Positions 31,294 through 64,000 of a stretch of DNA of 64,000 bases are shown here, piece by piece (the stretch's first letter is position 1; every line of letters starts with the position of its first letter). The DNA is from Corynespora cassiicola (taxonomy: Eukaryota; Ascomycota; Dothideomycetes; Pleosporales; Corynesporascaceae). The position numbers and the translations under genes were made by a program. The DNA is taken from the NCBI GenBank assembly GCA_022059125.1, contig JAEUWY010000022.1:52332-116331 (forward strand), written 5' to 3'. The notes beneath the pieces are model-generated. The model was not told the origin of the DNA and did not search any database. It saw only the letters and a list, made by a program, of their open reading frames with translations.

Positions 31294-31516
31294 TATAAGG
31301 CTGTATCTTATTATAATCTATTATAGCCTATTATAGAGTGTTTTAGGTTAGCTTAATTATAAGTGTAATAGTATATATTTCTAAGTTGCTGTAAGCTGTT
31401 TTAGCAGTAATTTATCTCTTTTTTCTATACGACAATATACAATTAGATTCTTTTTACCTGTCTATCTGCATTGCTGTAACCCTTACACTCTACTTTAAAT
31501 TCGTATCTGACAATAA

Positions 31517-35984: not shown

Positions 35985-36745
35985 GTTATAAAAAAACGAC
36001 AATGCATAGGATGTCCGGTAGTAGGTTTGGGCAGTCAGTTGTATGTATGCCGGCATGCCAACGAACCTGTTCTGAAGTGGATGGTTCCTCGGTCCAGGGA
36101 GCGCAACTACCCCACTCAACAATGATCGAAGTTCAATGCAGCCCGTTGCACCTTTGCGAAAGCTTCAATTTTCTGCCGAGTATTTTCAAGGTGACGATCA
36201 CAATTCCTGGTCCAGACGGAGTACCATTGGCTCGCTGCCGTCAGTCCAGCAGTATCAGCTAAGAGCCTGTTTGGCAGCTCCAGATTTCAGCTCCAGATTA
36301 GAGCCAGATTATGGCATTTTCGGCGTTATTTTCGGCGTATTATAACAGAAATTAAAGCTTTTAGCAGCTATAAAATAAATATAAAAATTAAAAACTATAT
36401 AGTACTTTTTAACTAGATTTTATAAAATTTTTATTTTCTATTTTTTTTATTAATTTTTTTTATTATTAATAAGCAGTAAGTATATTATATTATTTCTATT
36501 TTATTTTAATTAGTATATACTAACTATTACGTAATTTTATATATTTTATAATATTATTTTATTATATAGTGTAACGTTAATACGTAATCTACGCTTTTAT
36601 TTTAAATAATAATAGTATTTTAATAATACTTTCTGCTTTTAACTTATAATAACTATAAGTATAATTATATAACTTTTAAATATATTTTTAGCTTTTAATT
36701 TTTTATATTTCTATTACGTAGTTTATATAATTACTACTATTTATA
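35985..36745. other. Downstream of the HET gene: island edge then RIPped repeat
   Basis: GC-balanced to about 36345, then abruptly AT-rich. Near 36264 a GAGCCTGTTTGGCAGCTCC stretch resembles the ends of hAT-type elements, but no partner end was found. 36464-36740 repeats 22545-22815. No gene supported. Confidence 0.5.
36464..36740 (+). repeat. Unknown dispersed repeat S (second copy of 22545-22815)
   Basis: The two stretches share AAGCAGTAAGTATATTAT, TATTACGTAATTTTATATAT, a CGCTTTTATTTTAAATAATA segment and TATAATTACTACTATTTA. This copy stops where a Tc1-like element begins at 36746. Class unknown; RIPped. Confidence 0.6.
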
Positions 36746-39000
36746 CAGAGAGGTAACATTAAAAAAGCGTAATAGAAAAAATCGTACTTTTTAAACTTAT
36801 ATAACTTTTTATATAACGTAAAGGATAAGCGAGTCGCCCGGATAAGCGAGTTATTTACTTCTAAGTACTCTAGCGCGCGCGTAACCTACACCTATAATAC
36901 TATAACTAAAAAATATTTAATCTGCTTATAAAAAAGCATTAATAATTTTTATTTTATTAGCTATTAAAAATAATATAGTCTAAAGCGTACGACGCGCTGT
37001 TTCTGTGTATAGCACTCTCTATATAATACTTTATAATTAACGCGCTAGACGACCTACGCGACGCAATTACTAACCTAACTTAAAATAGCTAACTAAGCTT
37101 AAAAAAAAGTAATTATTACTTATATTTTTAAGCTAGATTTATAAAAATTCGCGTCTACGCTGACTGCTGTATATAATATAGCTAATTAGTTACTTACTAC
37201 GCAAAAGGCGGGCTCTGTTAGTATTAAGTAGTTTAATAACTTTATTAAGCGCTAGCTAGAGTTTTAAGTTTAATTAATCTGCTAGCAGAATCGCTAGCAG
37301 GTTCTATATAAAAATTTTAAAATTATACGCTTTTAGTTTAAGCTGCTGTATTATACAAAAAAAAAGTACAGTATTTCTAATAAAGATATATATAATTTTA
37401 ACAAAACGGGCTTTATGCTGGGCCAGATATTAGCTTAATTAGTAATTATAGTATTAGAAAGACGGAATTAACTAAAAAGCGTTTAGCTAGATAATTAGAA
37501 GTAGACTATAGTAATTTAGAAAATTAACGCGTACGGTTAGATAATTTCTCTTTTTATTATTTTCGCAGGTAAGTACTACCTCTCTACATAGTATAAAAGT
37601 AATAATATTTTATTTAGCTGGTATATTATACTTAGCGAGACAGGCTGGACAATAAACAAGCTAAAAGTACGTTAGTTAAAGTACTTTAACGCTTATACGC
37701 AGAGTTGTACAACAGAAGCCTACTAACTTCTTATTATTAACAGCTATAAAAGCTATAACTTTCTTACTTTTTAGAATCTCTGTAAAAAAAGTAAGATTAT
37801 TACTCTCTGTATACTTCTGTATTCTTTATATCTTCTTTAGCTACTTAATATAAAGTGTTTTTCGCTCTTAAAGCGGGCGTATAGTAATAAAATCTCTAGC
37901 TTAGCACGTAATTATATTAACTATATTAATAAAACTACTTTTCTGCCGGCTTTTAAAAAAGCTTTTAAATAATTTTTTACAGAGAGTAATATACGCGCGA
38001 GCTTCTAAAAGGTAGAAGTAGTTCTATATAATTTAGAGATAGTACTGTTAAAACTTAATATAAAGCTACGTACGCCTACGCTAGCTTTTTCTAAAACTAC
38101 TTAGTAGAAAGCTAGAATACTAAGTAACGCGTACGAGCTAGAGGCTTAATTAATATTAATCTGTAACAGAATTAGAAAGTATAAAAGCTTATTATCTGTT
38201 TCTATTATTAAAGCGCTTGCTCAGTTTAATAAAAATGCTGTAATACTAACTTATAAAGTTATATTACTTTATATACGAGTTAAAAACTTTAAAAAAGCTA
38301 ATAAAGCTGCTACGCAGCGTATAAAATAAAAAAATAAATAAATCTAGCGTAAAAAGACTTTAATAAAAGCTGAAAAAGCTAAAATTATTACTTAAAAAAA
38401 TATTAAAAAGTAATTAAATAAGAAGATACGCGAAAGTAAAATTTACTTTAATAGCAGCTAACAGGTAAAATTACGCTGCACGCGCTGTAAAAAGTAAAAG
38501 TATAATTTTTATATGTATAAACAGACAGTATAGCTACTCTAGTTACTCTTTATATTAATTTATTATAATATTTTTTAAAAGTAGCTAAGTAGGTAGTTAT
38601 ACGCGCGCTAAAGTACTTAAAAGTAAACAACTTGCTTATCCGGGCGACTCGCTTATTCTTTACATTAAACTAGCTATTTAAAAAAAAAAAATTAGTTTTA
38701 AAGATATTTACTAGCGCTACACATAAAAGAAAAAAAATAAATTAATTATATAATATTTTTAGCTTTTAAAAAAGCTCTAAAGTTATACTAAAAAAAAATA
38801 TAAAATTAAATACGCTATAACTTTTTTTCTAGCGTATAATTTTTAGTTTTTTTTTTTATATTAAAGCTATTAATAATATATAATTATATAAAAAAAATTA
38901 GTATAAGTTTGTTCTCTAAAAAATTAAAAATTTAAAAAATTAAAAAAAATAAAAAAGTTAAAATAAGTAAATTAATAATAAATTATTAATATTTAATATA
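36746..39000 (+). mobile_element. Tc1-like transposon D, 5' part, interrupted by a Fot1-type element
   Basis: Begins CAGAGAGGT after TA (36744-36745), the same terminus as at 54519 and, reversed, 42933. Positions 36746-36815 plus 38668 to about 38900 mirror 42933 down to about 42690. The element is split at a TA by the 1850-bp transposon at 36816-38665. Where it stops near the solo LTR at 39006 is unclear; the C-terminal transposase region is not seen in this orientation. Confidence 0.55.
36816..38665 (+). mobile_element. Fot1/pogo-type DNA transposon 1, RIPped
   Basis: 1850 bp. Ends are inverted: ACGTAAAGGATAAGCGAGT on the left and, on the right strand, ATGTAAAGAATAAGCGAGT, each followed by a second AAGCGAG/AAGCAAG repeat. 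The TA target is duplicated (36814-36815 and 38666-38667). The plus strand holds a DDE transposase relic: around 37390-37530 it reads IYNFNKTGFMLGQI...LVI, the first catalytic block of Fot1/Tigger-like enzymes with Asp/Glu changed by RIP. Near 38470 is a Cys-rich knuckle-like tail. The enzyme is dead. Confidence 0.85.
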
Positions 39001-39005
39001 ATATC

Positions 39006-39357
39006 TGTAACGAACCTCGTTCGCATAAAATCCGAATATATTTACTTCTAAGCATCGCGCACGTGATTCAGAACTTTATATCTAATTCCTAGCCTCCGAC
39101 ATCTGACTCAGCTCTAATTTCTTATTTTTTTATACTCTCTTATAATAACTAAAAAATAGAACTAAACTAGACTTAAAATAAAGTACTAAAAAAAAACTAT
39201 AAAAAGTTGCAATAGTTCTAGATAGTTCTGTAGTTTAGAAATATTTTTTTATACAAGACCTATAGGTTCCGACTTATAATTATTTCTTAGTTCTGTAAAC
39301 CTTTATTCTAAGTAGTATCTAAGCTGTATCGAAGACAAGTCGCCCTGTGTCTTTACA
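39006..39357 (-). repeat. Solo LTR
   Basis: 352 bp, from TGTAACGAACC to TCTTTACA, flanked on both sides by ATATC (39001-39005 and 39358-39362). It is the reverse complement of the LTR at 818-1169 and less RIPped than that copy. A lone LTR with an intact duplication is the product of recombination between the two LTRs of a full element. In LTR orientation the minus strand is sense. Confidence 0.88.
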
Positions 39358-39362
39358 ATATC

Positions 39363-40680
39363 CTTTAGCGTCTATAACTGCTTTATAACGCCTAGGTAAA
39401 AATAATATACAATTATCTATTATTTCCTGTGAAATTAAATTCCACTCTTTAATTATAGCTCTTTTAAATAAATTAATACTTTTGTTATTATTTTCTTTGC
39501 CTAATAAATTAGTTCTTTGTTTATTTAAGGCATTTTTTAATATAGCCCAGATATTTTTAATAGGAGCTAAATCTAGGCTATAGAGAGAATGTTGAAGAAG
39601 ATTAATTTGATTTCTTTTAAACCAATTTAAAACTAGTTTAGCTGTATGGATTTTTAAATTATCTTGTTGAAATTTCCAGTCTATAAACTAATTAGTATTT
39701 ATATTAATTTTAAAATTTAAAATTTTTATAAATATATTAATTAAATATATTTATTTTAATTTTAAAAATAAAAAAAAGGTATATAAACTAACCGGGTTTT
39801 ATTTGTTTTTTAATAATAAGTTTTAATACTTTTTATATATAATCCGTATTATTAAAGTAATTTTTAGAATTAGGTGTTTTAATAAATACTAATTCTGATC
39901 TTTCTTCTATCTAAATAGCTCCCTATACTGATATAACAATATCTCAAGCTATAATTTAATTAGTATTAAATATTTTAAAAAAGTAATTAAATTCAAAAAT
40001 TATAATTAATTTTAAATTAATTTTAATTTTTTTAATTTTTTTTTTTACTTACAATTTGATTTTATAGAAGCTAATTCAGCTTCTACTCTCTTATTTCTCT
40101 TTTTTCTTATATATTCCTGTCTAGAACCTAGACCTCTTTCTATTGCTGACTTATCAGAAAATATAATTTTATTTAAATTTATATTTTCTATATTTTTTAA
40201 ATTTTTTTAGTATATTCTAGTCTTATTTTTACTTTTTTTTTATTTAAAAAAGGTTTTTTACTAGTAATATTTGTACTGTATTTTTCTTTTTTAAAAAATC
40301 TTTATAAACTTTTTTTAGATATATTTAAATTATTTTTAAATAAAATTCTTTTATTTGTTTTTTTAGGGCTTTTAATTAAATCCCTATTAATAATTCTTTT
40401 TTCTCTTTTTAATAGTTTAATTTTATTCTGATTTCTATCTCTTTTTAAACTATTAAAAAGTTTATTTTTTTTATTAATACGTTGTATAGTATAATATATA
40501 CTTTTAATAGGTTTATTTAAAATAAAAGATATATTTTTAATAGATGTATTAGCTTTTAATAAAAGATTAACTTTTTCTTTATAGTCTGAAAATTGAGGTT
40601 CTATCTCGTCTTTATTCAGAGGTAATAGAGATTCAGATTTCTATTTCTAAAATATTTATTTATATACTAATTTAACTAGT
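39363..40680 (-). pseudogene. Tc1-like transposase C, degraded
   Basis: Minus-strand relic of a DDE transposase. The second and third catalytic blocks are recognisable: QDN (the second Asp), and the DLAPIKN.W block where the third acidic residue normally lies is readable as SLDLAPIKNIW. The N-terminal helix-turn-helix region is on the far side of the Fot1-type insertion and is too altered to read. At 40540-40640 the DNA is less mutated than elsewhere. Confidence 0.7.
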
Positions 40681-40689
40681 TTATTATTA

Positions 40690-42550
40690 ACGTATTCGGC
40701 AAGCGAGTAAGACAGATAAGCGAGTAAGACAGCCCCACCGCGCATCGCGTACATAAACAGCTCTAATAAGTTATAAAATAAAAAATAAAAGCTAATAAAA
40801 TTACTATTAAGATTTTACGCGCTTTACGTACGTATAAGCAGTATATTTAAATAACTAGTATATACTACACTTAGATAGTGCACGCTTTTAAAGTTAAGTA
40901 TACGCTGTACAAACCTTGCCCTACAGAGCCTCCTTCTAGATTTACTCTACTACTATACTATTCTGTACTGTTTTCTAGCCCTTCTAAATAGTTAATATAC
41001 TTTTCTCTGCTATAGTTGTACGACGTGCTGTCTGCTTACGTTTTTAACGTACATTTTCAGCTTAAAACGCAGCATTCTTAACCTTAAAAATTACTTTTTT
41101 ATATATAACTTTTTTAAAGCTTTTTAATAACTGTTAAAATGCGTAATCTATTAATAACTAAAAAAAGTTTATATAAAGCTTTTGTTACTCTTAAATATGC
41201 TTTACCTAACGCTTTATCTTAACAAAAGTATAAAGTATTTTTAACTTCTATTTAGACTCTTCTGTATATATAAAACTCAGCGTTTATATAATAGAATCTA
41301 AGCGCTAAAAAACCTATTCTAAGTTATACAGAACTAGCCCAGTAGCTTAAAAACTACTTTAAATATTTTTTATTGTAATAGCTGCTGTATACGCCGCATA
41401 GTATATCTTAAAAAACTTTTTTTTTATAATATAGTTTATACTAAGTCTTATTTTTTTTTTAATCTCTTTACTGTACAACGCTTTTAAAAAGCTAAAACAG
41501 CTTATATCTAGCGGCTAAAGCAGATAAGAAAAATAAAAAAGTAGATAAAAAGTAAGAATACTGTTCTGTTTGCAGAACTCTTTAAACCGGCTAAAGTAGT
41601 AGCTTCTATACCCGTTTATAATAAAAAGACGTATTGTTTCTTTCGTACAAGCCTTTGTGTGTCTATTAAAGTATTATATCTATTTATATCTAATCTAATT
41701 ATCTGTCTAGCTGTTTTTACTAACTATAATTACTTAGTTATACAGTAAGTTACAGTTTATATACTAAGTTACTTAGTAAAGCTTTACTGCGAGAATAATA
41801 AAAAGTAAAACCTTCTACTTTTAAGCGTTAACTCTGTATATAACAGTAACCTATTTACAGTTTTTAGGCTAAATAGTTTTCGTATAACTTTTTTATTCTG
41901 TTTTTATAACAACTTTTAAAGTCGCGATAATATCTATCTAAAAACTAGTTTTATTAAAGTTATATATATTATTTTTAAGTATTTTATACTTCGCGATTAT
42001 GTTTCGTACAAAGTTAAACTACACTTAAATAATAGTAGAATCTTCGCATACTGCTTGCTAGTAGTTATACTTATAATTATAAATTATATAAAGCATTTTC
42101 TAGCGATTAATAAAGTTTCTAACCTACTTTTAGCTAATAACTTAAAGTTAAAAATTATCGTGCGTTTAAAAAATAAAATTAGCAGTTTTTTATATAATTA
42201 AAATTTAGAAAAAAAATCTTCGCGTGATAAGGTCGAGAATACGCTAAAAAAAAACTTTCTTTTTAGTAGCTGTAAGTTTACACGTTACTAAATAAAAGTT
42301 ATATTTTAAAAAAGTACTATAATAGCAGCGCGTAAAAGTTGCGTAAGATACGTTATATAATTAAACTGCTTAACAGAAGCTTTTAAATAAACCTAAATTA
42401 TATACTTAAATAGCTAAAGTAAGTCTGCCTTTTTTTATAGACTGAGAGAATAAAAATATATTATATTATTATAGTTAAAGGGTGCTCGTACGCGACGCGC
42501 GGTAGAGCTGTTTTACTTGCTTATCTATCTTACTCGCTTGCCGAACACGT
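40690..42550 (-). mobile_element. Fot1/pogo-type DNA transposon 2, RIPped
   Basis: 1861 bp with inverted ends: ACGTATTCGGCAAGCGAGTA on the left and, reversed, ACGTGTTCGGCAAGCGAGTA on the right. TA is duplicated at 40688-40689 and 42551-42552. The minus strand around 42000-41800 holds the first catalytic block of the Fot1-type transposase (NIYNFNKTSF, then IATLKVV). It differs from transposon 1 in its ends (TTCGG against AAAGG), so it is a second family. Its right end recurs, unmutated, at 32844-32910. Confidence 0.85.
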
Positions 42551-42948
42551 TATGTAATCAGTACTTATATAAGCAAAACTTTATTTTTTAAATTTTATTT
42601 TTCTAATATTAAATTAAATTTCTAGCTTCAGTTTTTTGCTTACGTAATATATACTAAGCTAAGTTTAGTTAGCGTAAAATAAAAAGTTTTAATAATTTTT
42701 TAAGTAAAAAATTATAGCGTATTTAATTTTATATTTTTTTTTACTATAACTTTAGAGCTTTTTTAAAAGCTAAAAATATTATATAATTAATTTATTTTTT
42801 TTCTTTTACGTGTAGCGCTAGTAAATATCTTTAAAACTAATTTTTTTTTTTAAATAGCTAGTTTATATAAAAAGTTATATAAGTTTAAAAAGTACGATTT
42901 TTTCTATTACGCTTTTTTAATATCACTCCTCTGTAGTTAGATTTTATA

Positions 42949-43335
42949 CGCTTATACAGATTATAAATTAAAATTTAAATAAAATTACAGAATATAGCTA
43001 AATATTTAAGTTAATTCTGTATGTTTATATAGATTATAAATTAAAATTTAGATAAAATTATAGTAAATATTCGCGATTTAAGTAAAATTACAGAATATAG
43101 CTAAATATTTAAATTAATTCTGCATGTTTATACAGATTATAAATTAAAATTTAAATAAAATTAAAAAATATAGCTAAATATTAAAGTTAATTCTGCACGC
43201 TTATGCAGATTATAAATTAAAATTTAAATAAAATTACAGAATATAGTTAAATATTTAAGTTAATTCTGTCCGCTTGTATAAATTATAAATTAAAATTTAA
43301 ATAAAATTACAGTAAACATTCGCGATTTAAGTATA
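42949..43335. repeat. Minisatellite, about 73-bp unit, five copies
   Basis: The landmark AGATTATAAATTAAAATTTA starts at 42958, 43031, 43134, 43207 and 43281 (last copy AAATTAT...). The spacing is 73, 103, 73 and 74 bases. The long step carries a 30-base insert (TTCGCGATTTAAGTAAAATT), and that TTCGCGATTTAAGTA motif recurs at the right end (about 43320). Confidence 0.9.
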
Positions 43336-43752
43336 TATTTAACTCTAACTCTACATCTACTGTGCTGTTTTTCGGTATAATACTTATAAAAATAATAATA
43401 ATAATAAGTAGATTTTTAACAGTTTTATTATTTAAATATTTTTTAGTAGCTAAAAAGCTATATTATAGAAATAAATATAAAGAGTAGAAACGCACGCGTA
43501 AAACAGTTTACTTTTTTATATATAAAAATATTTTATATAATAAAAAGCAGTATCGTTATAATAAAAAAAAAAAAAACAGAAATAAAAAGAAAAAAATATA
43601 TATCTACTAGCTAAAATAAGTATATAGTATAATTTTTACTAAATCGTATCTATCTATTTTATACTCTAAATATTATAATTATAGTTACTAAATAATTTAA
43701 AAATATAAAATAATATTATAAATATAAGTAGTTTTAAAACGTATACTAACGC

Positions 43753-43865
43753 TATTTTTAATTAAAGTTTTTATTACGCGTTTAGTATTATATTATTTTT
43801 AATTAAAGTTTTTATTACGTATTTAGTATTATATTATTTTTAATTAAAAATTTTATTACGCGCTA
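43753..43865. repeat. Short tandem repeat, 41-bp unit, about 2.7 copies
   Basis: TATTTTTAATTAAAGTTTTT followed by ATTACGCGTTTAGTATTATAT starts at 43753, 43794 and 43835. Confidence 0.85.
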
Positions 43866-44294
43866 ACCTAAATTAAAATTTCTATTTTATAACTTATTTT
43901 ATTTTTTACTTACTAAACTAAGTTAGTATACTTCTTTTTTTTTTTTTTTTCTAATTTATTTTATAAGTTTTACTAGCTCTTTTAGCCGGCAGAAAGCCGA
44001 GTAGAACTCGACTTTTAGCTAGATTTTCTACTATATTTTTAACTATAATTATAAATATAGAAATTTTATTTTATATAATATAATTTTACCGCAACTCTAA
44101 GTATAAAATTTATTTTTTAAACTAGAAATACGTTTTATATACTCTAAAGTACCTCTAGTCTATCTTTTATAAGTTCTAATAGTAATAAAATTTACTTATA
44201 TTTTAATAATGTTAAGTTATATAGATATAAAGCAATTTAGTACTTTAGTTAGAAACAAATCTTAAAATCTTAGAGACAAATCACGCCAGCTCTT

Positions 44295-47200
44295 CTACCA
44301 GTAACAAGTAGCTTTTAAGAACATACCCGTCCCAAAGCAAGTAAAGTCCCGATTCTCTTTGTAACACTTTGACGTCGCCCAACCTTCACAGTTTAGATAC
44401 CCTACTACATCTCCAACCTTTGCCTTGTCATAATCTATCTGCTCCGCTAGCCCGCCATTGCTGTAATCACACGTTTTACCAAACACCTTGGTAATACCCC
44501 TGATCTCATCCGGCATGTCTGTAGTTGTAACATCGTTGTCTTCCGTCCAGCCATAGCTCGCTAGGCAGACTTTGTACTCTGCATAGTACGAGATGGCTTG
44601 TCGGCCAAACAGCCATGATCCGAAACCTGGGCCCCCGGAACTCATGTACAAGCTCCAAGTATAAATGTCGAATTTCGGTCTATGGCCTTCCTTCGTTTCT
44701 GGGGTCTTGGGAGGTTCTGGCGTCGACGGTGGGTCAGAAGGTTTTGGCGGAGGTGCAGGTGCCTGGACATCAGTGTTTTGTTCTGGGTCGATGCGCCACA
44801 TGAGACAGTTGTTTTCTCGGACACCACCTTGCTTGTCGATGATACCTTCTTGATCGCACCCGTCGATGAGAGCGACGAATTGCTTGTTGCATTCATCCTT
44901 GTTCATGAGCCATTCGCAGTTGTTTTTTGCTTCCAGGCGGACGAGGATGTTGAGCCCGGATTTGTGGATCTCTTGCCACCCGAAGCCGACGAGGGCCGCT
45001 TGGTACGAGTTACTACCGAAGGTGACCCCGTCGTAGGTTTTGCAGAAGGATTCGGCAGCTTTGACCATGTGTTCGCGTGTAGCCATCTGGCCGTTGTCAT
45101 AGCACTTATTCGTGTTTGCGCTGGGACTTGAAAAGTCGGGATTTTGGATCGCTGGTGTTGAAGGCTTTGGTGTTGAGCCTCCACCGCCTCCAGATGCCGT
45201 TGGACTGCCTCCTGTTTGAGTGTTGGACCCACCGCCGTTCCCTGGGATGCGGCCACCACCACCATCGTCGTTATCCCAAGCCCAAGGATTGTCCATGGTG
45301 TCTCTCCTCCAATAACATTTTCCATCGTCTTCCTCCTCTTCTCCTTCCTCGTCAGGGTTAGGATCAGTACCTGGCTGACACTGGAGGTCGATGCAGGTCG
45401 GGCTTCCGCATTTGCCCTCTGTGCAGGAGACGCAATCTTTGCCCTTGCATGTAGCACACTTGGGTCCTTCGCATCCGAAGCAGTTTGCGCCAATGCAAAT
45501 GTTGCAGAGTGGGCCCTTGCAAGAGACGCAGTCTAAACCAATACAGCCTAAGCACTTGAAGCCGATGCATACGTTGCAAAGAAGGCCAACTTCGCAGCCG
45601 CCGCATGAACTTCCACAGCCGCCGGAACCGCAGTCCCCACCTTTGCAGTCACCATCGCCATCATTGTCAGAGTTTTGAGAGTCTTCATTCTCTTCTTCGC
45701 CAGGATCGCAGAGGCCCGGCAACTTCGTACATGGCGTCGGATACGGCGTGGTGGTTGGGCGCGGCGGCAAGCCGGAAATGAATGTAATATTAGGGATTAT
45801 CGAAGTAACGTATGGAGGCGGAGGCCTTCGTATATCTGTTGCACTGGTGTAGATAATTCGTCCAGATGAGTCAGTCGTAGTGAAAGCAGGCCAGGTAGTA
45901 GTAGTCAGGAGTGTTACACCACTGGTAACGATCTTCGGCACATCTCCCAATGACGTCGGGCCGATGACCAAGGTAGAGATCCACCAAACCGATATAGTAA
46001 CGGGAGGTCTAGTGACTGTAGTGGTATAGCTCAAGCTCGTGATGGTGACCGGTGGATATGCCGTCGTAGCTGTCACGCCTTGATATGGTGGCAAGACGAC
46101 CGTGCATGGAAATTGACAATAAACCTGTGGGTTGGGCTGGTTCCAAATATCTGGTGACACCCACACCAGATCTTTGTCATTACCACTGTCCCCTGGAAGA
46201 TGGGCTCCCATATCAGCATCAAAATCAATTGACCATATCATGAGCCCGCCGAGACATAAAGAATTGGCAAAACCTTCCTTTAAGGCGAGTGTTTCCGCAT
46301 CGTCGTAGCCAACCCAGCTGTTACCAGCATAGGTAACATACTTGACCATCGCGGTCTCGTTGAAGTAAGGGGTAAGGCCATCTTTTTTGACCATCGCTTG
46401 AATCTCCCGGTTTGAAAGTACTCCTTCGAAAGCAGTACACACACCAGCTGCACCGGGGCCCTTGAAACCACAACCCATACTACCACAGGAGGCGTCTGCC
46501 AGCTTATAGGTCCGGCCGTAGTACGCCAGACCCATGTTGATCTTCTTCGGGTCGACACCGTCGAACCATAAGGGCTTAAAGTTCTGGTAGATCTCGGTGA
46601 TGTCGGTCTGTGGCCGAACGATAGATCCTATATGCATATTCAGTCAAAGCTCTCGACATGGAATCTTAATGTCTTCTTCGATATGTTCGGGAGAAAGCAA
46701 ATGCAATGCGAAACATAGTCAGAATGTTGCACTTACCCAGCGCCTTGACGTCCGTATCCCATGGACCGTGTAGATCATAGCTTTCCAAAGTCAGTCAAGA
46801 TACAATAAGCCTCAGCGAAAGATTTGATTACCTCATGAAGCCCATGAAGTCAACATAGGGTTCCATGGCCTTCGGCTTGAAGCCACGTAGATACCAATAA
46901 TCGGGAGCGAGGGTTAAGGAGAGACCATAACGTCCAGCAAAAGCAGCTTGCATCTCCTTAACTAGGAGCACGAGGTTATCTGCATCACCAGGTTTACCTC
47001 CCCTTTTCGCATCTTCAGGATATTCCCAGTCAAGATCTGCGCCCTGGAAACCATATTGATCCATGAATGCGATGGTCGACCTAATGAACACAGCACGATT
47101 CGCTGCAGAGCTGCACATATCACTCCAAGCTGTGTGATAAATACCTGGATCTGAAAAGCTCCAGCCGCCAATGGCAACCCACGTTTGCAGGCCGTTAGTC

Positions 47201-49723
47201 GAGAGCCTCGTGAACTCGCGATACATTGGAGGGTCGGCCTCATGCATCGGAATGAGGTTGAACGTTTTTGGGTCGAAGAACACAAAAGAATAGAAAAGAT
47301 GTGTCAACCCTTTAGTGTTGATCTGCGATGGGCTGACTTTGTCGCATTTCCGTTCGCGAACGTTCCAACCTTGGTAGTAGCCTACTCGACGGCCCATAGA
47401 CGCTGAACGCCCACCACAAGACGGAGAGGGATACTTCTGGCACGAACCATAGCCTTGCTGGCATGGTGTCTTACCGAATTGCGGCTCGGGATCGTAGCAA
47501 TGGACGTCCTCGGTACCACACCATCCGTAAAAACTACAGCATAAGTTAAGCCCGCATTTGGTCTTACCATCTACGGAGTCAATGCCACACATTGCTTTAG
47601 CATCGCAGTTTGAGGTACAACCAGCACCACAATTGCGTTCCTTGTACCCACATTTACCATCTGCACTACAACAGCTGTCGTCCTTGCAAGGCGAACCGGG
47701 ACCGCATTGTATTGGACCATCTCTTTTATGAAGCGAGTTTGAAAAATATGTGATTTCAGTGTTGGTTGTCGGTTTCTGAGAGCTCCCGCCGCTGATGATG
47801 CCTACTTTGCCAGAAGCGTGTTGATGAGAAGCCTTATGTAAATGAGCCCCGGCATGCCGACGGAAATGAGCGTGCCTTGATTCTGAGACGCTTCGTTCAG
47901 TGATTGTGGTGTTGCTTTCTTCTGGCTCTGCGAAGGGGCTCGGATTATTTTGAGGGCTTGGAAAGTCTTCATCGTGCCCGATGTTCCCTAGGATGTACGC
48001 GGTCCCCAAGCTTAGGGGATCGTACGGGATGAGTGTCCGAGGCTCTCTGTGGCCCTGTTGTATGAAATTGCCTCCCTTACTCAACAAGCTTGCTGGTTCG
48101 ATCGCATTGATAGACGCGTTACTGCTGACAAACCTCAAGTCCGACAAAGTACTGTTAGGGTTGGATGCAGTGTCGTGAAACGATTCGTTAGGTGCGAACT
48201 GAAGTCCTTGATCGTGCATATAAGCACCACCGAAGGCAGAAAACTCATCTACAGCGGCTTTTTCTTCCGCGAAAGCGTCAGTCACGTTGGACGAAGTGAC
48301 CGTGCCGTTGAGGTGCACCGCGTAATGTGGACCTCCCCACTGGCGAACTTGCTCCCATGTCAAGCTCGCCATGGATTGAATCTGCTCCTTGGGCGTAAGA
48401 TGACCGACGTAATTGTCGGCGCGCTTGGTGTCTTTGTATAGTTTCACATCGTAAGTTTGGGAACCACCTGGTCCCATTTTGACTGTTGGTGAAATTGTAA
48501 ATCAGTAGATGTTTGTTTCGAAAAGATAAGGATACTCACATCCAGCTGGTGGCTCACTGGGGTCGTTGAAAAAAAGGAGGGACACAAGAACAGCGGTGTT
48601 GTCCAGCTCTGACTGTGTTATTCTTCCTGCTTCTTGCCTAGCGATCGCTCGCAATCTTGTCGCGACGACTCTGTGTGCGTTGCCTTGCCAGTCTGGTGCA
48701 AGCTATTAGCATCACGAATATAAATCCGATTGCGATCAATGAATTCCTTTGGGACTCGTAGCGCCACAGGTAGGAAGGAACAATCATAGAACAGGACATA
48801 CCTTGTTCAGACTTGATCGCCTCGTCCCATTGCGGGGCTTCATCTGCACAATTAAAGTTGATCAGTTGTGGTGCACAGTATGTGTTTCCTGGACCACCGT
48901 CTCCTTCAGGCGATACGTTCTGATTAGGAGTACCAATGCCGCCCTCTACAAAACTACAGGTCAACATTAGCATGCTTAGCTAGAGCAGTATGAGTAAATC
49001 AGGGCAACTGACCTGCGCGGAGGCCATTCTTCACACGTGTAGTAACGGCCACTACGTTGCAACAGAATGGCATCGCCATTCGCATCAATGGACCAATCAG
49101 CAGCGATCTCGTTAATATGTAAAGGGTCGACAGTCTCCCTTGATTTATGATGCCACGGTCCAGGCATAACATCAGGTTGGATAATTTGGCCTGCAGAGTT
49201 TCTTTCCGGACAAGGATGGTTCTTGATCCAATTCCTATCACACATGCGATCTCCCCTCGGGTCCGTGGCGGCGGAGTTGATATCGAAGCCGTAGATATTA
49301 GATCCCGCCACACCTGCCCATGCAGCAAGGCTTCTTGTTTGAGCCCTTTGAGTACCTAACCAGTTGATATTGTTTTGGCAGATGGCGGGCATGAAATGGC
49401 AATTGTAGTATAAGGCGACAATGTTCTGGGGAATAACAACAAAATTCGGAGTATCAAGAGCCGTTCTTCTCCAAAAAGCTGTAAGGTATTTGATCAGCAG
49501 CTGATTTGGTGTTCGGAAGCTGTTGCAATGGCCACTTACGCGCTTGTTGGCCATTACGCATCATGTATCTGATCTAGGTCAGTAATTGTCCCAGCTTGTA
49601 CGTAAAAGAATGCTTAACATACTGATATTCTTGAATATACTGGGCCTGAACAAGGCTGAATAATAAAATAGCGTAAGAGTATAGTTGTGAGATGCTCACA
49701 AAGGGGCGCGTATGAAAAAGCAT
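44295..49723 (-). CDS. Killer-toxin-like GH18 chitinase with nuclease-like N-terminal region
   Basis: Eight exons (49723-49623, 49568-49540, 49478-49013, 48953-48802, 48692-48540, 48482-46832, 46780-46737, 46627-44295) sum to 4929 bases, exactly 1643 codons, with all splice phases consistent. The product is 1642 residues. Order: signal peptide (1-28); Cys-containing region with CEEWPP then EGG (191-204), resembling the NucA/NucB nuclease signature; linker to about 552; Lys-Arg at 553-554, a Kex2-type site; two hevein-type domains (560-593, 600-647); GH18 (about 660-1027) with SYDLHG and DLDWEYP, catalytic Glu about 787; Thr/Pro-rich linker (1038-1162); CxxC-rich repeats (1193-1282); Arg-Arg (1306-1307); a C-terminal Cys domain (1374-1642). 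It fits subgroup C chitinases related to zymocin alpha, but no LysM is seen in it. Secreted; chitin binding and cleavage are secure, nuclease activity is inference. Confidence 0.85.
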
Positions 49724-50566
49724 GACAGCAAGAGAGTGAATTTGCAGGTACTTCACATCCCACATTGGCGAGTGAGAATGACAAGCTATATAGCTCAGGT
49801 GTTGTAACTGCCGATAGCAGCGAAATGTGACCACCTAGGAGCACACTGAATTGGTTTGATCGAAGCTGGACTAATTCTATTATTGTTCAGTTGAGAACGG
49901 TTCATGTCGAGTTCGATAAAATGAACTGAATCTAAGCGTAAGGGGCCATCACCATCTTCGTGTAGCGCATGTCTGACCCTGTTTTTGCAAGTGGTTCTCT
50001 AACGTTTAAAATGTTTTTCGAACGTGTACAAGGGTATATAATAATCTAGACGGGCCTTTTCCAGGGATATGACTGCCGCTAGTAACGGAGGCAGGGTTTC
50101 CGGTTGGCACGCCAGGTGGTTATGTTGTAGTTCATTGACCTGCCCGGCGCCTTGGCGTTAGGTCCGGTTTCTCTAATTTGACTTGCATTCGTGTTGAATT
50201 GTGGCTTTACAACAGCGGGACAACGACATGGCGAATTTCCAATTAAATGTGTGTGACTGTGGTGTATAAAGTATGTCTGTGCAGGTTCAGCTCGAGGAAC
50301 TACTTAAGGCTGCATCGTTGTGCTAGTTCTCCAAAGACAAGGGTGCGCGGGATGAGACTGGCTTTATGGATGAAGCGAGACCGCAGATCTGTCCAGCATG
50401 TCGACCGCGAATCACGTGTCTCCGCGGGGCGGACCGGCTATAAAGCTCATTTCGCTTGACAACTGTGCCTCACTTGTACTGTTCAAAATCTTCGACTCTT
50501 TCCCCTGAAACTAAGAGCTTCTCTCTGCATAGCACAGCTTGAGGCATTTACTACGCTGCCAACATT
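49724..50566. promoter_or_regulatory. Shared upstream region between the chitinase and the orphan gene
   Basis: 843 bp between divergent starts. TATATA at about 49787-49792 lies 65-70 bases before the chitinase start. TATAAA at 50439-50444 lies 123 bases before the orphan start. Beside the latter are a CACGTG box (50413-50418) and GCGGGG (50424-50429), which fits the SYGGRG pattern bound by the carbon catabolite repressor CreA. These are sequence matches only. No gene seen in this stretch. Confidence 0.4.
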
Positions 50567-51220
50567 ATGCCGATTCCTGATCCAATACCGTTTTCTGGTA
50601 GGCCAGACCAAGTCAATCCGGGAGCGATACCACCTCATCTTCTCACAACACAACCTCAGGCGGTCCCTCCAACGCAACATGCATCGCAAACTGAAATACA
50701 TCCGGCTTTTGACCGGCTAAAATGGTCAATATTGGATCCTCTACCCGAAGTCCAGATTGTTGGTGTCAATGCTCAAGGCGAACCGCAGCTGCAACCTTTC
50801 TTCGAAGGACCCGAATCCGCCTCAGCAGAGGAGCCTGCAACAAAACCCCCGAATGCTCGACTACAAATTGTGATCGAACCATTGAATAGCTGGCATCAAT
50901 GGCGCGACAAGAAACATCTAAAGCCCGCCCCAGGACTTATTGAGAATACAGATGGTCGACCGATCTCCGTCAAGCAATTCATGCAGGCGATGCACGACTA
51001 TGCTGCTCCAATGCGCAAGCTCCTCTGTCAGTCTACGGACATTGACGGTCCATCTGATATTCCTCGCGCAAAATTTTACTTCGACCTGATCATGGGTGGC
51101 GGATCCAAGGACCCGCAGCGACCGTTCCCGCAATTACAGGTCCATGTCCTCGAGCATCCTTCCGGAGAAGGAGACAGATCCGATTTGGACTGGAAGTCGC
51201 TTAATAGCAGATTCGGCTAG
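50567..51220 (+). CDS. Unrecognised 217-residue protein between the chitinase and LysM genes
   Basis: One open frame of 217 codons without introns, GC-balanced, with a TATAAA 123 bases upstream. I do not recognise the family. Residues 1-45 are Pro-rich and look disordered. From about 48 there is a more ordered part (FDRLKWSILDPLP), a basic/Trp segment near 105-120, and an R-P-I-S-V-K-Q-F-M-Q-A-M stretch near 131-142 that could be helical. There is no signal peptide, no transmembrane segment and only one Cys, so an intracellular location is likely. It lies between two secreted chitin-active proteins, divergent from the chitinase and in the same direction as the LysM gene 259 bases downstream. 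A role in regulation or self-protection is only a guess from position. Confidence 0.7.
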   Translation: MPIPDPIPFSGRPDQVNPGAIPPHLLTTQPQAVPPTQHASQTEIHPAFDRLKWSILDPLPEVQIVGVNAQGEPQLQPFFEGPESASAEEPATKPPNARLQIVIEPLNSWHQWRDKKHLKPAPGLIENTDGRPISVKQFMQAMHDYAAPMRKLLCQSTDIDGPSDIPRAKFYFDLIMGGGSKDPQRPFPQLQVHVLEHPSGEGDRSDLDWKSLNSRFG

Positions 51221-51479
51221 TGAGTCTGCGTCACGGGGCTCCTTTGTAGTTTGCCAAAACAAGACATGGCTTTTTATGGTGAAATGGCCGAAATCATATA
51301 AGGTCAAGGCGCACCATCGTGTTACGCCGCAGCACGGCCCTACTAGTAGTCCAATGTAGCGCATGCTTAGCGTCAGGTACGCTCGTTCAATGCCAAGCAT
51401 CATCTTAGTAGTCATCTTGTCGCGGTATGTAGCTGATGGGAAGAACTTGAGTCCAGCGCTTCGTGGCCAATTCATCATC

Positions 51480-53791
51480 ATGATTTCCTTCTATCACCCC
51501 TTACTAGCCGTTCTATTGGCCGTCATTCCCGTCTCGGCAGAGATTCGATGTCGTTACAATGTCACCGCACCTGAGAAAGTCACATATTATACCTGCAACG
51601 AGCTAGCTATTAAGTACGAAATCAGCTCCGAAAAATTCATGCTTCTCAATCCACTTCTCGACCCAGACTGTACCAGCATCCAGGCAGGCGAGACATATTG
51701 TGTTGCAGGTAGCGTCGTTCCTACGACTACGGACGGCACCTGCAAGCCTGAATCATACATCTCATGCGTAGGCTACAGTGGTGGACAATGCTGCAATTCC
51801 GCGACATGGAAATGTGGAAATACAAAGCAAGTAGCCGCGACGACCGCGCAAGCGGCACATATTCATTGACCCAGCTAACATTCACTCAAGAGCAGATTGT
51901 GCCACCGGAACCTGTTCCGGCGGTTTATGCGAGGTCCAAGACCCAAATGCTTATTCCCTCGACGGCAAATGTGGCCCAGCAACTGGCGACAAGAAATGTG
52001 GTGGGAAATGGGGTTCTTGCTGCGGTAAGAGCAGCAACACTTGCGGTTCCGGCGAAAGCTTTTGCGGCGCTGGAAACTGTCTATACGGCAACTGCACTTT
52101 ATCATGGCCAACTGCTCCATCTGGGCCATCTGCGTTACCCTTCTACTATACAGGTAATACCACGGATGGTTTCTGTGGTCCTGCGAACGACTACAAGGTC
52201 TGCAATGCAGCGTGGGGCTTCTGCTGTGCGAGCACGGGAAAATGTGGTATTACTCAGCAGTTCTGTGGCATGGGATGTCAAACTCTATATGGCAACTGCA
52301 CTATTGCTGCTGCTCCGCCTGCATCAAAGCCCGGAGACGTGAGTCCAGGTATGCAAATGCGTCGATTCACTTTTTGGCATCATCTGACAACGGTTAACAG
52401 ATGGAACGTGTGGAGGAAAAAACGGCTTCGTATGCAAAGACTCACCCTTCGGCGACTGTTGCTCGAGCTCAGGATTCTGTGGTACATCGGACGTTCATTG
52501 CAAAGGAGGCTGCCAATCCAAGTTTGGCAACTGCACTACCGCCGGTAATATCTCGCCAGACGGAACTTGTGGTGGCACTAACAGCTACACGTGTGCTGAT
52601 AGTACCTTCGGCAGCTGCTGTAGCAGCAGTGGATTCTGCGGCAGTACCACTGGCTATTGTGAGGTTGGTTGCCAGAGAAAATTCGGTACTTGTACCGGCA
52701 GCGACAGAATGTCGCCTGATGGAACATGTGGTGGTGCCAATGGCCACACGTGCAAAGGTAGTCCGTTTGGAGACTGTTGCTCGAGTTCAGGCTTTTGTGG
52801 GAGTTCCACGGGCCATTGTGCAGCGGGATGCCAGGCGTCGTTCGGCACGTGCTCCACCGGGTCTGGCACGATATCGACGGACGGTACCTGCGGAGGCACT
52901 AAAGTCTTCACTTGCAAGGGAAGTGAGTTTGGCGATTGCTGCTCGGCTTCGGGCTACTGTGGAAGCACCACTGGGCACTGCGAAGCGGGTTGTCAGTCAA
53001 CGTTCGGAACATGCTCTTCAGGTTCGGGCAAAATCTCCACTGATGGAACCTGCGGAGGCACAAAGGGCCTCACTTGCGCGGGCAGTACCTTTGGAAAATG
53101 TTGCTCTGAATCAGGTTATTGCGGAAGCTCGACAGCTCATTGCGAAGCTGGGTGCCAAAGCACGTTCGGAACGTGCTCGGCGGGTGCAAGCAAGATCTCC
53201 ACAGACGGAACATGCGGTGGCATTCAAGGTCTAATCTGCACAGGAAGCGGCTTCGGTGACTGCTGTTCTATCTCCGGGTACTGTGGAAGTACGACAGCAT
53301 ACTGCTCTGCTGGATGTCAAAGTGCGTTTGGTGCGTGCACAACTGGCGGTACTGCGCCCAGCAATGTGTCGCCTGATGGAAGTTGCGGAGGCACAAAGAA
53401 GTACAGTAAGTGCTATTCTTCCCAGAATTGGCTTTCGAAGATGCTAAGTTCCTACAGCTTGCGCTGGATCATCGACGGGCGGGTGTTGTTCATCTAGTGG
53501 ATAGTGAGTCCCAGCTGACCAATTTACCTACGGCAGTAAGAACTAAATTACTTTAGCTGCGGCATTACCATTAATCATTGCGCACAAGGCTGTCAAACAT
53601 CGTTCTCAAGCTCTTGTATTACTACTAACATTCCCACGCTCGACGGCAGTTGTGGTCCTAAGAACGGCGCACGTACCTGTGCTGGAGGACCTTTTAACAG
53701 CCAATGTTGTGGCGCTTCAGGCTTTTGCGGAACAACAAACTCTCATTGCGGCAGCGGATGTTTAGCTGGGTTTGGAAAGTGTAATTCATAG
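51480..53791 (+). CDS. Secreted LysM plus multi-hevein chitin-binding protein
   Basis: Five exons (51480-51826, 51891-52348, 52401-53405, 53458-53503, 53557-53791) sum to 2091 bases, giving 696 residues in one frame. The first intron appears to use GC (GCAAGT) with a CTAAC branch and AG acceptor; the others are GT-AG. The start is the Met just before a clear signal peptide ending VSA; an in-frame Met at 51363 is less likely. A LysM domain (about 25-75) is followed by eleven hevein-type ChtBD1 units of roughly 45 residues, each beginning DGxC, usually with a CCS core and a final GC.S.FG.C. Units 4-9 are very alike. No catalytic domain. Such proteins bind chitin and can shield walls or act as effectors. 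Its position beside a chitinase supports a shared role. Confidence 0.87.
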
Positions 53792-54518
53792 CGTAGTATT
53801 GCTTGAATATGGTATAATATTTTACACTCAGACACGCTGTGTAAAAGCTACTAACGTAGCCTACAAGCGAGCGGATCACACAAGCAAGCGGATCGGCTTT
53901 TTAATTGCCCTAATGCGCGCAACCACCTACTTAACTACTTTAGAAAAATACTGTAATAACTTAATATAGAAAAAATTTAAAGTAGCTATACTACTTTTTT
54001 ATATATATAAAAGTTATATTTTTATTTTTTATAGTGTATATAGCGCGCTTTTATTTACTAGCTTCTACTAAAATAAGTTTTATTTTTATAATTTTTTATT
54101 TAATTATTTTTTAACGTTTTTTTAAAAAATAGTTTTAGCTTTATTAGTTTTATATAAAAAGAATTTATATTAAATTATTTTTTCGGCTTTATATACAATA
54201 AAATAGCTTTATTAGCTTATATAAAATTTATATTTTAGCTTTTAAATAATATAGCTGTATAAAATATTACTACAGCTTTTTTTAAAAGTAATTATTAGCT
54301 ATAATAATAAGAGTAAATAATAAGTTTTTTTATTTTTTTACTCTATTATAAATTAACATTAATTAAGTTTTTATTTTATATATATTATTTAGTATTTTAA
54401 CTTTTTATTAAATAGTTTTAAAAATAACTAGCGTAAATATATATAGTTTTATATTAAACTTTAATAGTAGTATTTTTAAATTATATAAAACTACTTTTAT
54501 ACTTTATAAATTTATATA
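53792..54518. other. Island edge, transposon end fragment and AT-rich DNA; no gene seen
   Basis: Normal composition to about 53940, then RIPped. The Fot1-type end at 53854 lies here. The rest (53990-54518) is TA-rich with nothing I can identify. Confidence 0.5.
53854..53935 (+). mobile_element. Relic terminus of a third Fot1/pogo-type transposon
   Basis: After TA, the sequence ACGTAGCCTACAAGCGAGCG followed by a second AAGCAAGCGGATCGG copies the plan of the other two Fot1-type ends (ACGT, then a variable stretch, then two AAGCGAG repeats). No matching right end or transposase follows before the Tc1-like element, so it is truncated. It starts 62 bases after the LysM/hevein stop. Confidence 0.45.
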
Positions 54519-54530
54519 CAGAGAGGTGAT

Positions 54531-57500
54531 TGTCAGGCACGAATCTGAAGTAGAGTATAAAGGTTACAGCAATACAGATAGACAGGTAAAAAGAATCTAA
54601 TTATATATTGTCGTGTAGAAAAGAGAGATAAATCGCTGCTAAGACAGCTTACAGCGACTTAGAAATATATACTATTACGCTTATAACTAAGCTAACCTAA
54701 AACACTCTATAATAGGCTATAATAGGTTATAATAAGACACAGCCTTATATTATCTTTTTTTTTAATAGTATACGACTTTGTACACTATTATACCTATAGA
54801 TAAAAAAAATAGTAATTATAAGTATCTATTTTATACTTTAGTTTCTATTTAAAAGGTATAGTTTATACTTTTAAATTTCTAGTAGTTTATAGTAAAATAT
54901 AGCGACTCTATAGTTTAAGAATTATATCTAGTTTAGATATTCTGTTTTATTACTGTTTATAATAAAGTATAGTAACTTTAATTATTTAATCTAGTAGTTA
55001 AAACTTATTAATTTAACTTATTAGAGTTCGCTATAGTTTACAGCAGTTTTTTCTATCTACTATAAAAATTAAAATTTAATACTCTATTTTTTAGTAAGCT
55101 ACTATAAACTATAGTAGGTATAAGTGTAACTAGTCTTTCTTTTTTAAAATTAAATTAAAGTTATTTTACTTTAGTAAAAAAAGTAAAAATAAAAAAGTAG
55201 AATATTAAAAAAAGTTACGGTAAAGGAGTTCTAATAGAAAAAAAGTAAAAATACTTTCTAGAGATATATAAAGGGTTTTTCTAACACTTTCTAGCTTTTA
55301 GTCTTTTTCTCTTCTACTCTCTACTTTTAATTTAGTAAGTTTTTTAAAATTTTCTTATACTTTCTATTTTAGAGTATTATAGAGTACCGCACTTTATTAT
55401 ACTTTTTATTATAAAATATTATAAAATATTACAGTTTGTAATGCCCTATAATATTCTATAATATTTTATTTTATTATATTATAGTTTTAACTAACTAGTT
55501 TAGAAACCGTATACGTAATAATTAGACTATTTTAAACTTTTCTACTTTTTAGCAACTTATTTTACTCTATTATTATCTATTATAGACTCTACTAAAATTA
55601 GAAATAACATTCTAAATAATAGCAGGTTTACCTATTATATTTATATCTGTTATATTTTTTTTTTTAGTAAAAAAAAGTATTAATTTTTTAGGCAGATTAG
55701 TTACTTATATTTTATCTTTAATAAGTTTACTAAAAATTTTTATAAAGAATAGTTAGTCGAGATAGAGAAAAGTAAAGTATTACTGTTTAAGCGGTGTTTT
55801 AAATACTTTATTAGTAACCAGAAGTATTGTGCGGTAAGTTTCTGTCCTTTTTATAGCTATTTTAGGCTATTCTTAGCTATTATAGGGCTTTTTAACTTAT
55901 TTTTAGATATCTAAAGCTTTTTATAACGAATATAATATAATTTATAACTTTCTGCTCGAGATCCGCCGCGGTTACTATATAGTCTAAATTACTGCAGTTT
56001 TTAATAACGCTAGAATAGTTATTTAGAAAACTTATTATAAAAAGATTTACTTTAATACTATAAAAATAGAAATTTAGTAGTTTAAATTAATCTATATCTG
56101 TAAGGCGCTTTCTAAGCGTTTTTTATAGTAATTTTTTTAAAATTTTTTATTTTAAGGCATTTTAGGCTATTCTAACACCTTATAAAAAGTTTATTCTCTA
56201 TAATACTTATTTAATACTATATAATAGTATAGTTTCTGCTAATAATACTCCGCAGTTTAAAGTACGCTTTAGTAGATATAAGTAAAACTTTAAAAGTATT
56301 ACTGCTAAAATAGAAGCTAAAAAGCGTACTTTTAAGGCTTTTGTATCCGCTTAAATTAAAACTAACTAAAAAAATAGTAATACGTCTAAAAAGAAAGTAA
56401 AATAGCCTATTATACGCTATAATAGCCTATACTAATATTTTTTTCTAAAGTTATAGTAGTAAAGCTGCCTCTAGTCTAGCTACTACAGCTGCTTAGAAAA
56501 AAAAAAAATTAAAAGTCTAAATTATTAATTTTAAGGCTGAACGTGCGCGTGCTCTAAAAAATAAAAAAAGTATTTTTATAAAAAAGATTAAAGAGCTTTA
56601 GAGATAGATTGAGCCTCTTACTGCGGCCTGTGCCTAGTTAATATATAGTAGTATAGATTAATACGGGCTTTTATAGAGTATTATAGCGTGAAAAAGTCTA
56701 GGTTAGTTTTTTTTTAGCTTCTTTTTTAGCGTTATAGTTTCTTTTAGAGTATATAGGTGATACCCGAGGTCTTTAGTAGCCCTCTACCTAATTTTTAAAT
56801 AGTTTTTCGTAATATAAGTTTTTTTACTCTAATATTTTTTTCTATATCTTATTATAATGTTTTTTAGTCTTTTATAGGTTATTTTAGGCTATAATAGGCT
56901 AGTAATATCTCTATAAGTTTTTTCAACCTCTTCGTATAGTCTTTAATTCTATATTTTTTTAGAATTATAGCGCTATTAAACATCTTTTTATATAAAAAAC
57001 CTAATATATTTCTTAGAAAAAAATATAAGGTGAAAGTAGCTATGTTTTTTATTTTTTTTTTTTTAGCTAAATCTTCGGATACTAGCTTACTTAAAAGTTA
57101 TCTGGCTTTTTTCTGGGTATTTTAATTTATTATAGGCTATAATAGGGCTTTATAGCGTAAAGTGGCTTATTTACCTTCTTTTATTCGTCGGCTCTAAATA
57201 CTTTTTTACTTCTAAAAGTTATTAATCGCGCTAGCGTTTATATTTAGTCTAAATTTCTAAAAATTCTTTTCTTTAGAGTAATCTTTCTATTTTACTAAAT
57301 ATTTTTAAGTGCCGATTAAAAATTCTCTCTAATCTAGTACTTTTTTAATAAAATAGATATTATCGCTTATTATGCGTAATGTGTCTACTAGTAGTTCGCT
57401 TTAGAATTATATTATCCCTTTTTTAGTATATTTTTTTAGTAATAATATATAGAAAACTAGGTGGATGCTTTGTAGTTCAGATAGGTTTACTTTATATATA

Positions 57501-62382: not shown

Positions 62383-62799
62383 CTGATATTAAAAAAGAGT
62401 AATCGAAAAAATAGTACTTTTTAAACTTCTATAACTTTTTAACTAAACTAGCTATTAAAAAAGAAAAATAAGTTATATAGAGATTTTTCTAGTCTTTTAT
62501 AATAATTTAAAAAAGAAATTATTTATATAATAAAAATAGATTTAAAATTTAAAAGAAAAGTAGACTAAAAAAAAAATTAATAGCTAATTTTTTTTTTTTA
62601 ATAACATTTTTTAAATTCTTTTACGCTAATTATATTTAGTTTAGCGTATATTACGTAAGCAGAAAACTAAAGCAAAAAATTTAATTTAATACTAAAAAAA
62701 TAAAGTTTAAAAAAATAAAGTTTTGCTTATATAAGCACTAATTATATAATAATAAACTAGTTAAACTAGTATATAAATAAATATTTCAGAAATAGGAAT

Positions 62800-63913: not shown

Positions 63914-64000
63914 GGGTTTTAGGGTTAGGGTTAGGGTTAGGGTTAGGGTTAGGGTTAGGGTTAGGGTTAGGGTTAGGGTTAGGGTTAGGGTTAGGGTTAG
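63914..64000 (+). repeat. Telomere, (TTAGGG)n
   Basis: 87 bases to the window edge. The first unit is irregular (GGGTTTTAGGG), then perfect TTAGGG repeats. The G-rich strand runs 5' to 3' off the right edge, as at a right chromosome end. There is no telomere-linked helicase gene or other subtelomeric gene in the last 10 kb. Confidence 0.98.

Follow-up and report, generated by a model that had tools for sequence, protein, structure and literature searches.

The window, a 64,000-nucleotide stretch of a Corynespora cassiicola contig, carries a gene predicted to encode a secreted precursor in which a nuclease-like head and a killer-toxin-like chitinase flank a conserved dibasic site. That the head is an N-terminal domain of the NucB kind (competence nuclease, ComI) is supported by computation, and the combination of chitinase, nuclease-like head and conserved cut site suggests a possible self-contained weapon against other fungi. 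The full reading, in which a killer-toxin-like chitinase is secreted as a modular precursor with a NucB-like nuclease cargo, Kex2 release and antifungal action, we judge to be close to evenly balanced.

Gene model and chitinase carrier

In the predicted splice model, 1642 residues plus a stop codon form one frame from eight exons on the minus strand, separated by seven introns, all GT-AG and 51-109 bases long. The first-pass annotation had proposed these eight exons, with consistent phases and a 1642-residue frame, and both the model and the junctions of annotated relatives bear this out. The annotated Paraphoma protein P0033 has the same junctions for exons 1-6 and then reads through intron 6, and MGFMSYDLHGPW, which spans exons 6-7, continues into exon 8 in P0036, P0040 and P0041. 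The layout of the gene and its product is as follows.

44295..49723 (-), whole gene; GT-AG introns, single open frame, junctions matching annotated relatives
49723-49623, 49568-49540, 49478-49013, 48953-48802 (-), exons 1-4 of the splice model
48692-48540, 48482-46832, 46780-46737, 46627-44295 (-), exons 5-8 of the splice model
49643..49723 (-), signal-peptide-like start, residues 1-27, a hydrophobic stretch with a VQA end, from reading the sequence
48469..49464 (-), NucB-like domain (the head), residues 49-305, with introns inside
48938..49035 (-), motif 1, CEEWPPRSFVEGG, C-E-E-W-P-P-R-S-F-V-E-G-G, residues 192-204, with intron 48954-49012 inside
48673..48811 (-), motif 2, S-E-Q-D-W-Q-G-N-A-H, residues 247-256, with intron 48693-48801 inside
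47728..48468 (-), long linker without Cys, residues 306-552, probably disordered
47722..47727 (-), Lys-Arg 553-554, probable Kex2-type site; dibasic site conserved among relatives
47404..47721 (-), chitin-binding (CBM18) region, residues 555-660; Pfam Chitin_bind_1, two stretches
46218..47391 (-), GH18 catalytic domain, residues 665-1002; Pfam E 4.6e-58, DLDWE intact at 783-787
45948..46169 (-), post-catalytic LPPY module, residues 1019-1092, common to GH55-type carriers
44778..45116 (-), C-terminal Cys domain, residues 1370-1482, common to GH55-type carriers

It is highly improbable that the 5' exons are part of a separate upstream gene and the fusion an artefact of the gene model: the splice phases fit, and head and GH18 lie within single database proteins in Paraphoma (P0033), Hypoxylon (P0001 and P0002), Pleomassaria (P0036), Parastagonospora (P0040) and Periconia (P0041). 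The gene sits about 14 kb from a telomere, on a contig of 116,331 bases with TTAGGG repeats at its end; this contig end and the introns argue against location on a cytoplasmic linear plasmid.

The carrier combines CBM18 with a GH18 domain retaining DxDxE, as expected of group C chitinases. Chitin_bind_1 scores 24.4 bits in the whole protein, under the 27.8 cut-off, and 36.8 bits, over it, on the exon-6 frame alone. The reported absence of LysM domains holds, with no match at E<=10 in a Pfam search of the window protein; passages of PMC8042737 describe the C-I subclade as often without detectable LysM.

Evidence for a NucB-type head

The domain calls made earlier stood for GH18 (E 4.6e-58) and Chitin_bind_1 but not for PF14040, to which the window protein itself gives no hit at E<=10; sequence searches of its head alone against Pfam and the PDB found nothing. 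The NucA/NucB-like signature that had been read in the head was upheld in part, by Glu194 falling on NucB Glu94 and by the fold of a relative, but lacks the PF14040 match and has Glu in place of Asp93. We take ComI and NucA/NucB to be one family. PF14040 is matched in 14 of the 17 members of the head family, with P0023 (25.2 bits) and P0024 (26.8 bits) exceeding its cut-off of 23.8, and the structure model of P0023 has a NucB fold, albeit with a Foldseek E-value of only 0.027 against NucB. The structural search with P0033 gave chitinase-fold rows only, among the matches listed, so P0023 is the source of the fold match. Two models share a strand-strand-helix order in the surroundings of motifs 1 and 2. 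The family profile scores 8.5 bits against the NucB sequence (best of 1000 shuffles, 7.1), and hhalign gives the same pair a probability of 6.3%, covering motif 1 only. Profile searches of the PDB returned no NucB entry with trimmed family rows, while with full-length rows chitinases filled the best 60 rows. An antibody chain (E 0.88), the lone PDB match with the trimmed rows, was taken as chance.

At the active site, Glu194 aligns with the NucB general base Glu94 in all three alignment modes, and position 194 is E in 42 of the 43 family rows with a residue. The metal ligand Asp93 is replaced by Glu193 in the window protein, at a position that is D in 31, E in 11 and S in 1 of 43 such rows. 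NucB His53 aligns with Asn (N79; N in 43/43), and Gln249 (Q in 28 of the 29 rows that have a residue there) is the counterpart of Asn117 by motif reading only, none of the three alignment modes pairing them. Mutational data excerpted from PMC5758888 give no significant activity for B. subtilis NucB H47A, D87A, D87N, E88A or N111A. The ComI toxins, in the description available from PMC3482391, have an acidic dyad plus a third acid downstream, a pattern that E193, E194 and E202 reproduce in the window head. Cysteines number seven in 10 of the 13 heads counted, eight in P0010, and six in P0001 (late start) and P0040. In zymocin a free cysteine provides the link to the carrier; a free seventh cysteine in that role has little to tell here, as the carrier-less P0023 also has seven.

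Probable release site, proposed action and alternatives

The Lys-Arg pair reported by the first-pass annotation is present at residues 553-554. Upstream of it, the linker is probably disordered, as modelling indicates: the corresponding residues 307-553 of P0033 have pLDDT below 50, and window and P0033 share 71% identity in the linker against 88-100% in the flanking parts. A dibasic site lies 0-3 residues before [DE]GP-x-QCGP in all seven proteins with that start, window included, the comparison outside the head family being one head-less chitinase.

We propose that a Kex2-type protease would cleave after Arg554, that the chitinase part would bind a competing fungus and open its wall, and that the freed NucB-like part could act as a metal-dependent nuclease damaging the competitor's DNA; cargo and carrier would come from one nuclear gene, with a logic like that of zymocin. 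Group C chitinases have been hypothesised to pass antifungal molecules across fungal walls, and those of moulds that resemble killer toxins to be wall openers for some antifungal molecule (both in sections of PMC8715425); the window gene encodes a candidate cargo in the same precursor. With cargo and conserved cut site in one precursor, the carrier-cargo idea is therefore open to experiment on a single purified domain and a single deletion strain.

Two other roles for the head deserve weighing. The protein might be a secreted bifunctional scavenger, its chitinase and active nuclease working outside cells to digest extracellular DNA and the walls of dead fungi or insects, either as a source of nutrients or to counter DNA traps, and neither being delivered into living cells. 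Precedents are NucB itself, a secreted nuclease that degrades biofilm (PMC5758888, in part), and a secreted fungal DNase reported to act, in all likelihood, on host extracellular DNA (PMC6401486, in part), and the existence of carriers of GH55 type speaks for wall digestion in general; alone, however, this account leaves unexplained one head on exchangeable wall hydrolases, the shared chassis and the dibasic site, and we consider it unlikely. We think it slightly less likely still that the head keeps a NucB fold without nuclease function, as a DNA- or glycan-binding module or a pro-domain silencing the chitinase until Kex2 cleavage. The change of Asp93 to Glu in the window clade, of His53 to Asn family-wide and perhaps of Asn117 to Gln would suit such a head, and cleavage at the head-carrier boundary suits a pro-domain as well, but the residues found at these sites are near invariant (N79 43/43, E194 42/43, Q249 28/29), and two Hypoxylon proteins keep the head while their chitinase motif is degraded, which a pro-domain would not predict.

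Known systems and the shared chassis

Text searches of open-licence literature found, among the matches listed, no NucA/NucB-chitinase fusion from a filamentous fungus. As described in part of PMC8472843, Debaryomyces hansenii pDH5A ORF2p combines a signal peptide, chitin-binding domain 1, GH18 and a DNase NucA/NucB fragment in one 1226-residue protein; compared by that description, it differs in its yeast cytoplasmic linear plasmid, in an autolysin fragment with LysM elements and in NucA/NucB being listed last. Zymocin of Kluyveromyces lactis likewise uses a GH18 chitin-binding carrier to admit a nuclease to the target cell, but its tRNase is a separate subunit and it is plasmid-borne (PMC8715425, PMC4392113 and PMC5408186), whereas LysM is absent from the window protein and its head is of the NucB-like kind. 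Fungal group C chitinases share the CBM18-GH18 carrier and long C-terminal region; in the window protein a NucB-like head replaces LysM, and same-chassis relatives bear a GH55-type hydrolase. Bacillus NucB/NucA (ComI; PF14040, PDB 5omt and 6ejs) resembles the head in fold (by the relative's model), acidic dyad, E-G-G and strand-strand-helix order, but is about half its length. Seven conserved cysteines set the fungal head apart, as do Glu in place of Asp93 (window clade), Asn in place of His53 and Gln at the site where the motif expects Asn117. Tox-ComI of bacterial polymorphic toxins is a nuclease family that serves as a toxin domain on larger proteins, with Ascomycota and Basidiomycota also listed (PMC3482391, in part), the window head differing in its N-terminal position and in having fungal wall hydrolases as carriers.

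The head family sits on GH18, CBM18 and GH55-type carriers. Among 44 sequences, P0035, P0037, P0038 and P0042 are hit at 2e-17 or better by an LPPY profile built on three GH18 carriers, and these and P0010 at 1e-15 or better by a C-terminal Cys profile built on four. More tentatively, and leaning against it on present evidence, we suggest a common chassis of NucB-like nuclease head, dibasic release site, LPPY module and C-terminal Cys domain, to which GH18 or GH55 may be fitted for different walls, cargo and means of entry being joined in one precursor; filamentous fungi would then possess a nucleus-encoded equivalent of bacterial polymorphic toxins. If true, such interchange of GH18 and GH55 would give fungi a new route to interference toxins.

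In a head tree of 18 of the 44 head rows, a clade joining the heads of the window and Paraphoma proteins to those of the remaining Pleosporales that bear GH18 and of a metagenome protein was rejected (AU p 0.00034), and in a GH18 tree of seven proteins and one paralogue piece a window and Hypoxylon grouping was not (AU p 0.255). Module swapping and whole-gene transfer are both compatible with the two trees.

Gene model and probable processing site

The first-pass annotation had proposed a single 1642-residue frame assembled from eight exons, and our splice model bears this out on the minus strand (49723 to 44295), with all introns GT-AG and 51–109 bases long. The exon 1–6 junctions are identical in P0033 of Paraphoma chrysanthemicola, which then reads through intron 6 and ends FMGFMR; P0036 (Pleomassaria), P0040 (Parastagonospora) and P0041 (Periconia) continue across exons 6–8. 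In the translated frame, the motif CEEWPPRSFVEGG occupies residues 192–204 and the Lys-Arg lies at 553–554, as first placed. A Pfam scan of the protein returned a chitin-binding domain and GH18 (residues 665–1002, E 4.6e-58) but neither LysM, whose absence had been claimed, nor a nuclease domain.

We surveyed ten proteins for dibasic sites. Lys-Arg or Arg-Arg lies 0–3 residues ahead of [DE]GP-x-QCGP in 7/7 of those with a CBM18 start (window included; P0001, P0002 and P0039 lack this start), though the seven are not independent, as two pairs are closely related. The site is kept even though the linker preceding it is poorly conserved. GH55-type carriers have Arg-Arg within N-[VF]-T-R-R-A-A in 4/5 cases; in P0035, the sole carrier compared with the PDB, it borders the glucanase match on the N-terminal side. 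Our one control, a head-less C4 paralogue with a signal-like start and CBM18, has no dibasic site before CBM18.

Carriers and the head family

Thirteen long proteins bear the head: seven with GH18, five with pectate-lyase-like domains (four from Colletotrichum and one from Orbilia; two stretches each in the four rescanned), and one with CBM18 alone, the metagenome protein P0034, which may be incomplete. P0035 matches solved beta-1,3-glucanases, which we take to be family GH55, at 4e-161 or better. With E-values computed for a set of 44 sequences, the post-catalytic segment of GH18 carriers is also present in all four proteins from Colletotrichum, at 2e-17 or better (2e-4 in Orbilia P0043), and the C-terminal Cys domain of GH18 carriers recurs in the same four and in P0010 (1e-15 or better). 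The 44-sequence profile search listed no such Cys domain in P0043, P0001 or P0002, nor in P0033, P0034 or P0040, which end early. Judged from sequence, carriers with different hydrolases thus have head and tail modules in common. In Hypoxylon (P0001, P0002) the head is kept and the fused GH18 motif is degraded to DLNWD and DLMWE. The sole further chitinase of this genome at E<=1e-20 (L008, C4:2086500-2096400) lacks the head and is probably inactive, since DIDWY replaces DxDxE.

Searching with residues 1–330 recovered two Hypoxylon proteins, both with GH18, among 1126 candidates. A profile of these two and the window protein drew 30 proteins from 2519 candidates at E<=1, and precomputed annotation assigns PF14040 (NucA/NucB nuclease) to 4 of the 30; one Hypoxylon head as query found 13 long proteins, itself included. 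In Pfam scans, the NucA/NucB resemblance proposed at first pass shows in most of the family but not in the window head itself: of 17 trimmed heads scanned singly, 14 hit DNase_NucA_NucB with E<=0.1, the strongest at 6.3e-6, and three, the window head included, did not. One further family was listed, for a single member. The PF14040 profile searched against this genome found nothing. Heads of three distant relatives each retrieved the window gene and no second place at E<=0.1 in the 44.35-Mb genome. On this basis the family members are securely homologous and, at this sensitivity, the genome seems to carry one copy of the head.

An unrooted 18-head tree separates the heads of the window, Paraphoma, Camillea and Hypoxylon from the others (97.8/99), and a topology constrained to join the window head to those of other Pleosporales is rejected (AU p 0.00034). 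For GH18, the tree places the window protein closer to the Pleosporales (72.9/72), with the alternative grouping not excluded (p 0.255). Head exchange and whole-gene transfer are both possible on these trees; the window protein is 88–94% identical to P0033 across folded parts, which suggests that the gene comes from a member of the Pleosporales close to Paraphoma.

Predicted active site and competing readings

In the NucB study (PMC5758888), Asp93 and Asn117 are described as holding the metal, Glu94 as the base and His53 as positioning Asp93, and B. subtilis NucB mutants at the equivalents H47, D87, E88 and N111 as having no significant activity. All three of our alignment modes place Glu94 on Glu194 and His53 on Asn79. 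Among 44 aligned heads, counting only rows with a residue at the position, Glu194 is E in 42/43, Asn79 is N in 43/43 and Gln249 is Q in 28/29; at the Asp93 position, 31 of 43 have D, 11 have E, the window protein among them, and 1 has S. The predicted head site is thus conserved without being identical to that of NucB. We read Gln249 as a candidate counterpart of Asn117 from the motifs E-Q-D-W-Q-G and D-N-R-G-A-G; no mode (0/3) aligns the two, because a long insertion precedes the helix. Protein Data Bank entry 9fj7 is, by its title, the NucB N117Q mutant.

The reading we favour, at slightly under an even chance, is that of one precursor: chitinase and NucB-like head would be produced jointly and parted by a Kex2-type protease; the chitinase would open the fungal wall and the head would then act on competing fungi. 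Its gene model, a relative's fold, the conserved dibasic site and the shared chassis are supported by computation; cleavage, activity, target and delivery are what we infer for the window precursor. The head could instead be a pseudonuclease or pro-domain, which we regard as unlikely; the near-invariance of Asn79, Glu194 and Gln249 speaks against it. Because the alignments do not support the Asn117 assignment, this reading gained slightly and the precursor reading fell slightly from even. That the protein is an extracellular scavenging enzyme seems rather unlikely. For the joint precursor there are earlier parallels: Debaryomyces plasmids likewise described with NucA/NucB fragments beside GH18 (PMC8472843), and bacterial polymorphic toxins with ComI nuclease domains, also listed in fungi (PMC3482391). 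Among the matches listed, literature text searches gave no report of a filamentous-fungal NucA/NucB-GH18 fusion or of GH18/GH55 exchange.

Subtelomeric surroundings

A contig of 116,331 bases supplies the window as its right-hand 64 kb and ends in TTAGGG repeats (window 63919–63996), which puts the telomere ~14 kb from the gene. The gene lies within an island at positions 44–54 kb with ~42–54% GC, with flanking stretches mostly 15–25% GC.

Features of the window around the gene
1-12000, 17000-32000, 36000-44000, 54000-64000: AT-rich stretches, GC 15-35% vs ~50% in gene islands
12070-16917, minus strand: retrotransposon polyprotein in one unbroken frame, with reverse transcriptase (RVT_2), 54-56% GC in AT-rich surroundings
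33250-35984, plus strand: heterokaryon-incompatibility gene (HET, E 1.2e-27) in its own normal-GC island
50564-51217, plus strand: 218-residue open frame between the gene and its neighbour, weak DUF6699 match only (E 0.033)
51400-53494, plus strand: divergent neighbour frames, CBM18 in six stretches, start weakly LysM-like (E 0.15)

The low GC of the AT-rich stretches is as expected of repeat-induced point mutation. The divergent neighbour frames would form one LysM/CBM18 effector-like gene; in Trichoderma, a LysM protein gene is described adjoining a subgroup C chitinase gene (PMC4392113). Given its intact frame and 54–56% GC amid AT-rich sequence, the retrotransposon is probably a recent insertion spared decay. 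It is presumably of Copia type.
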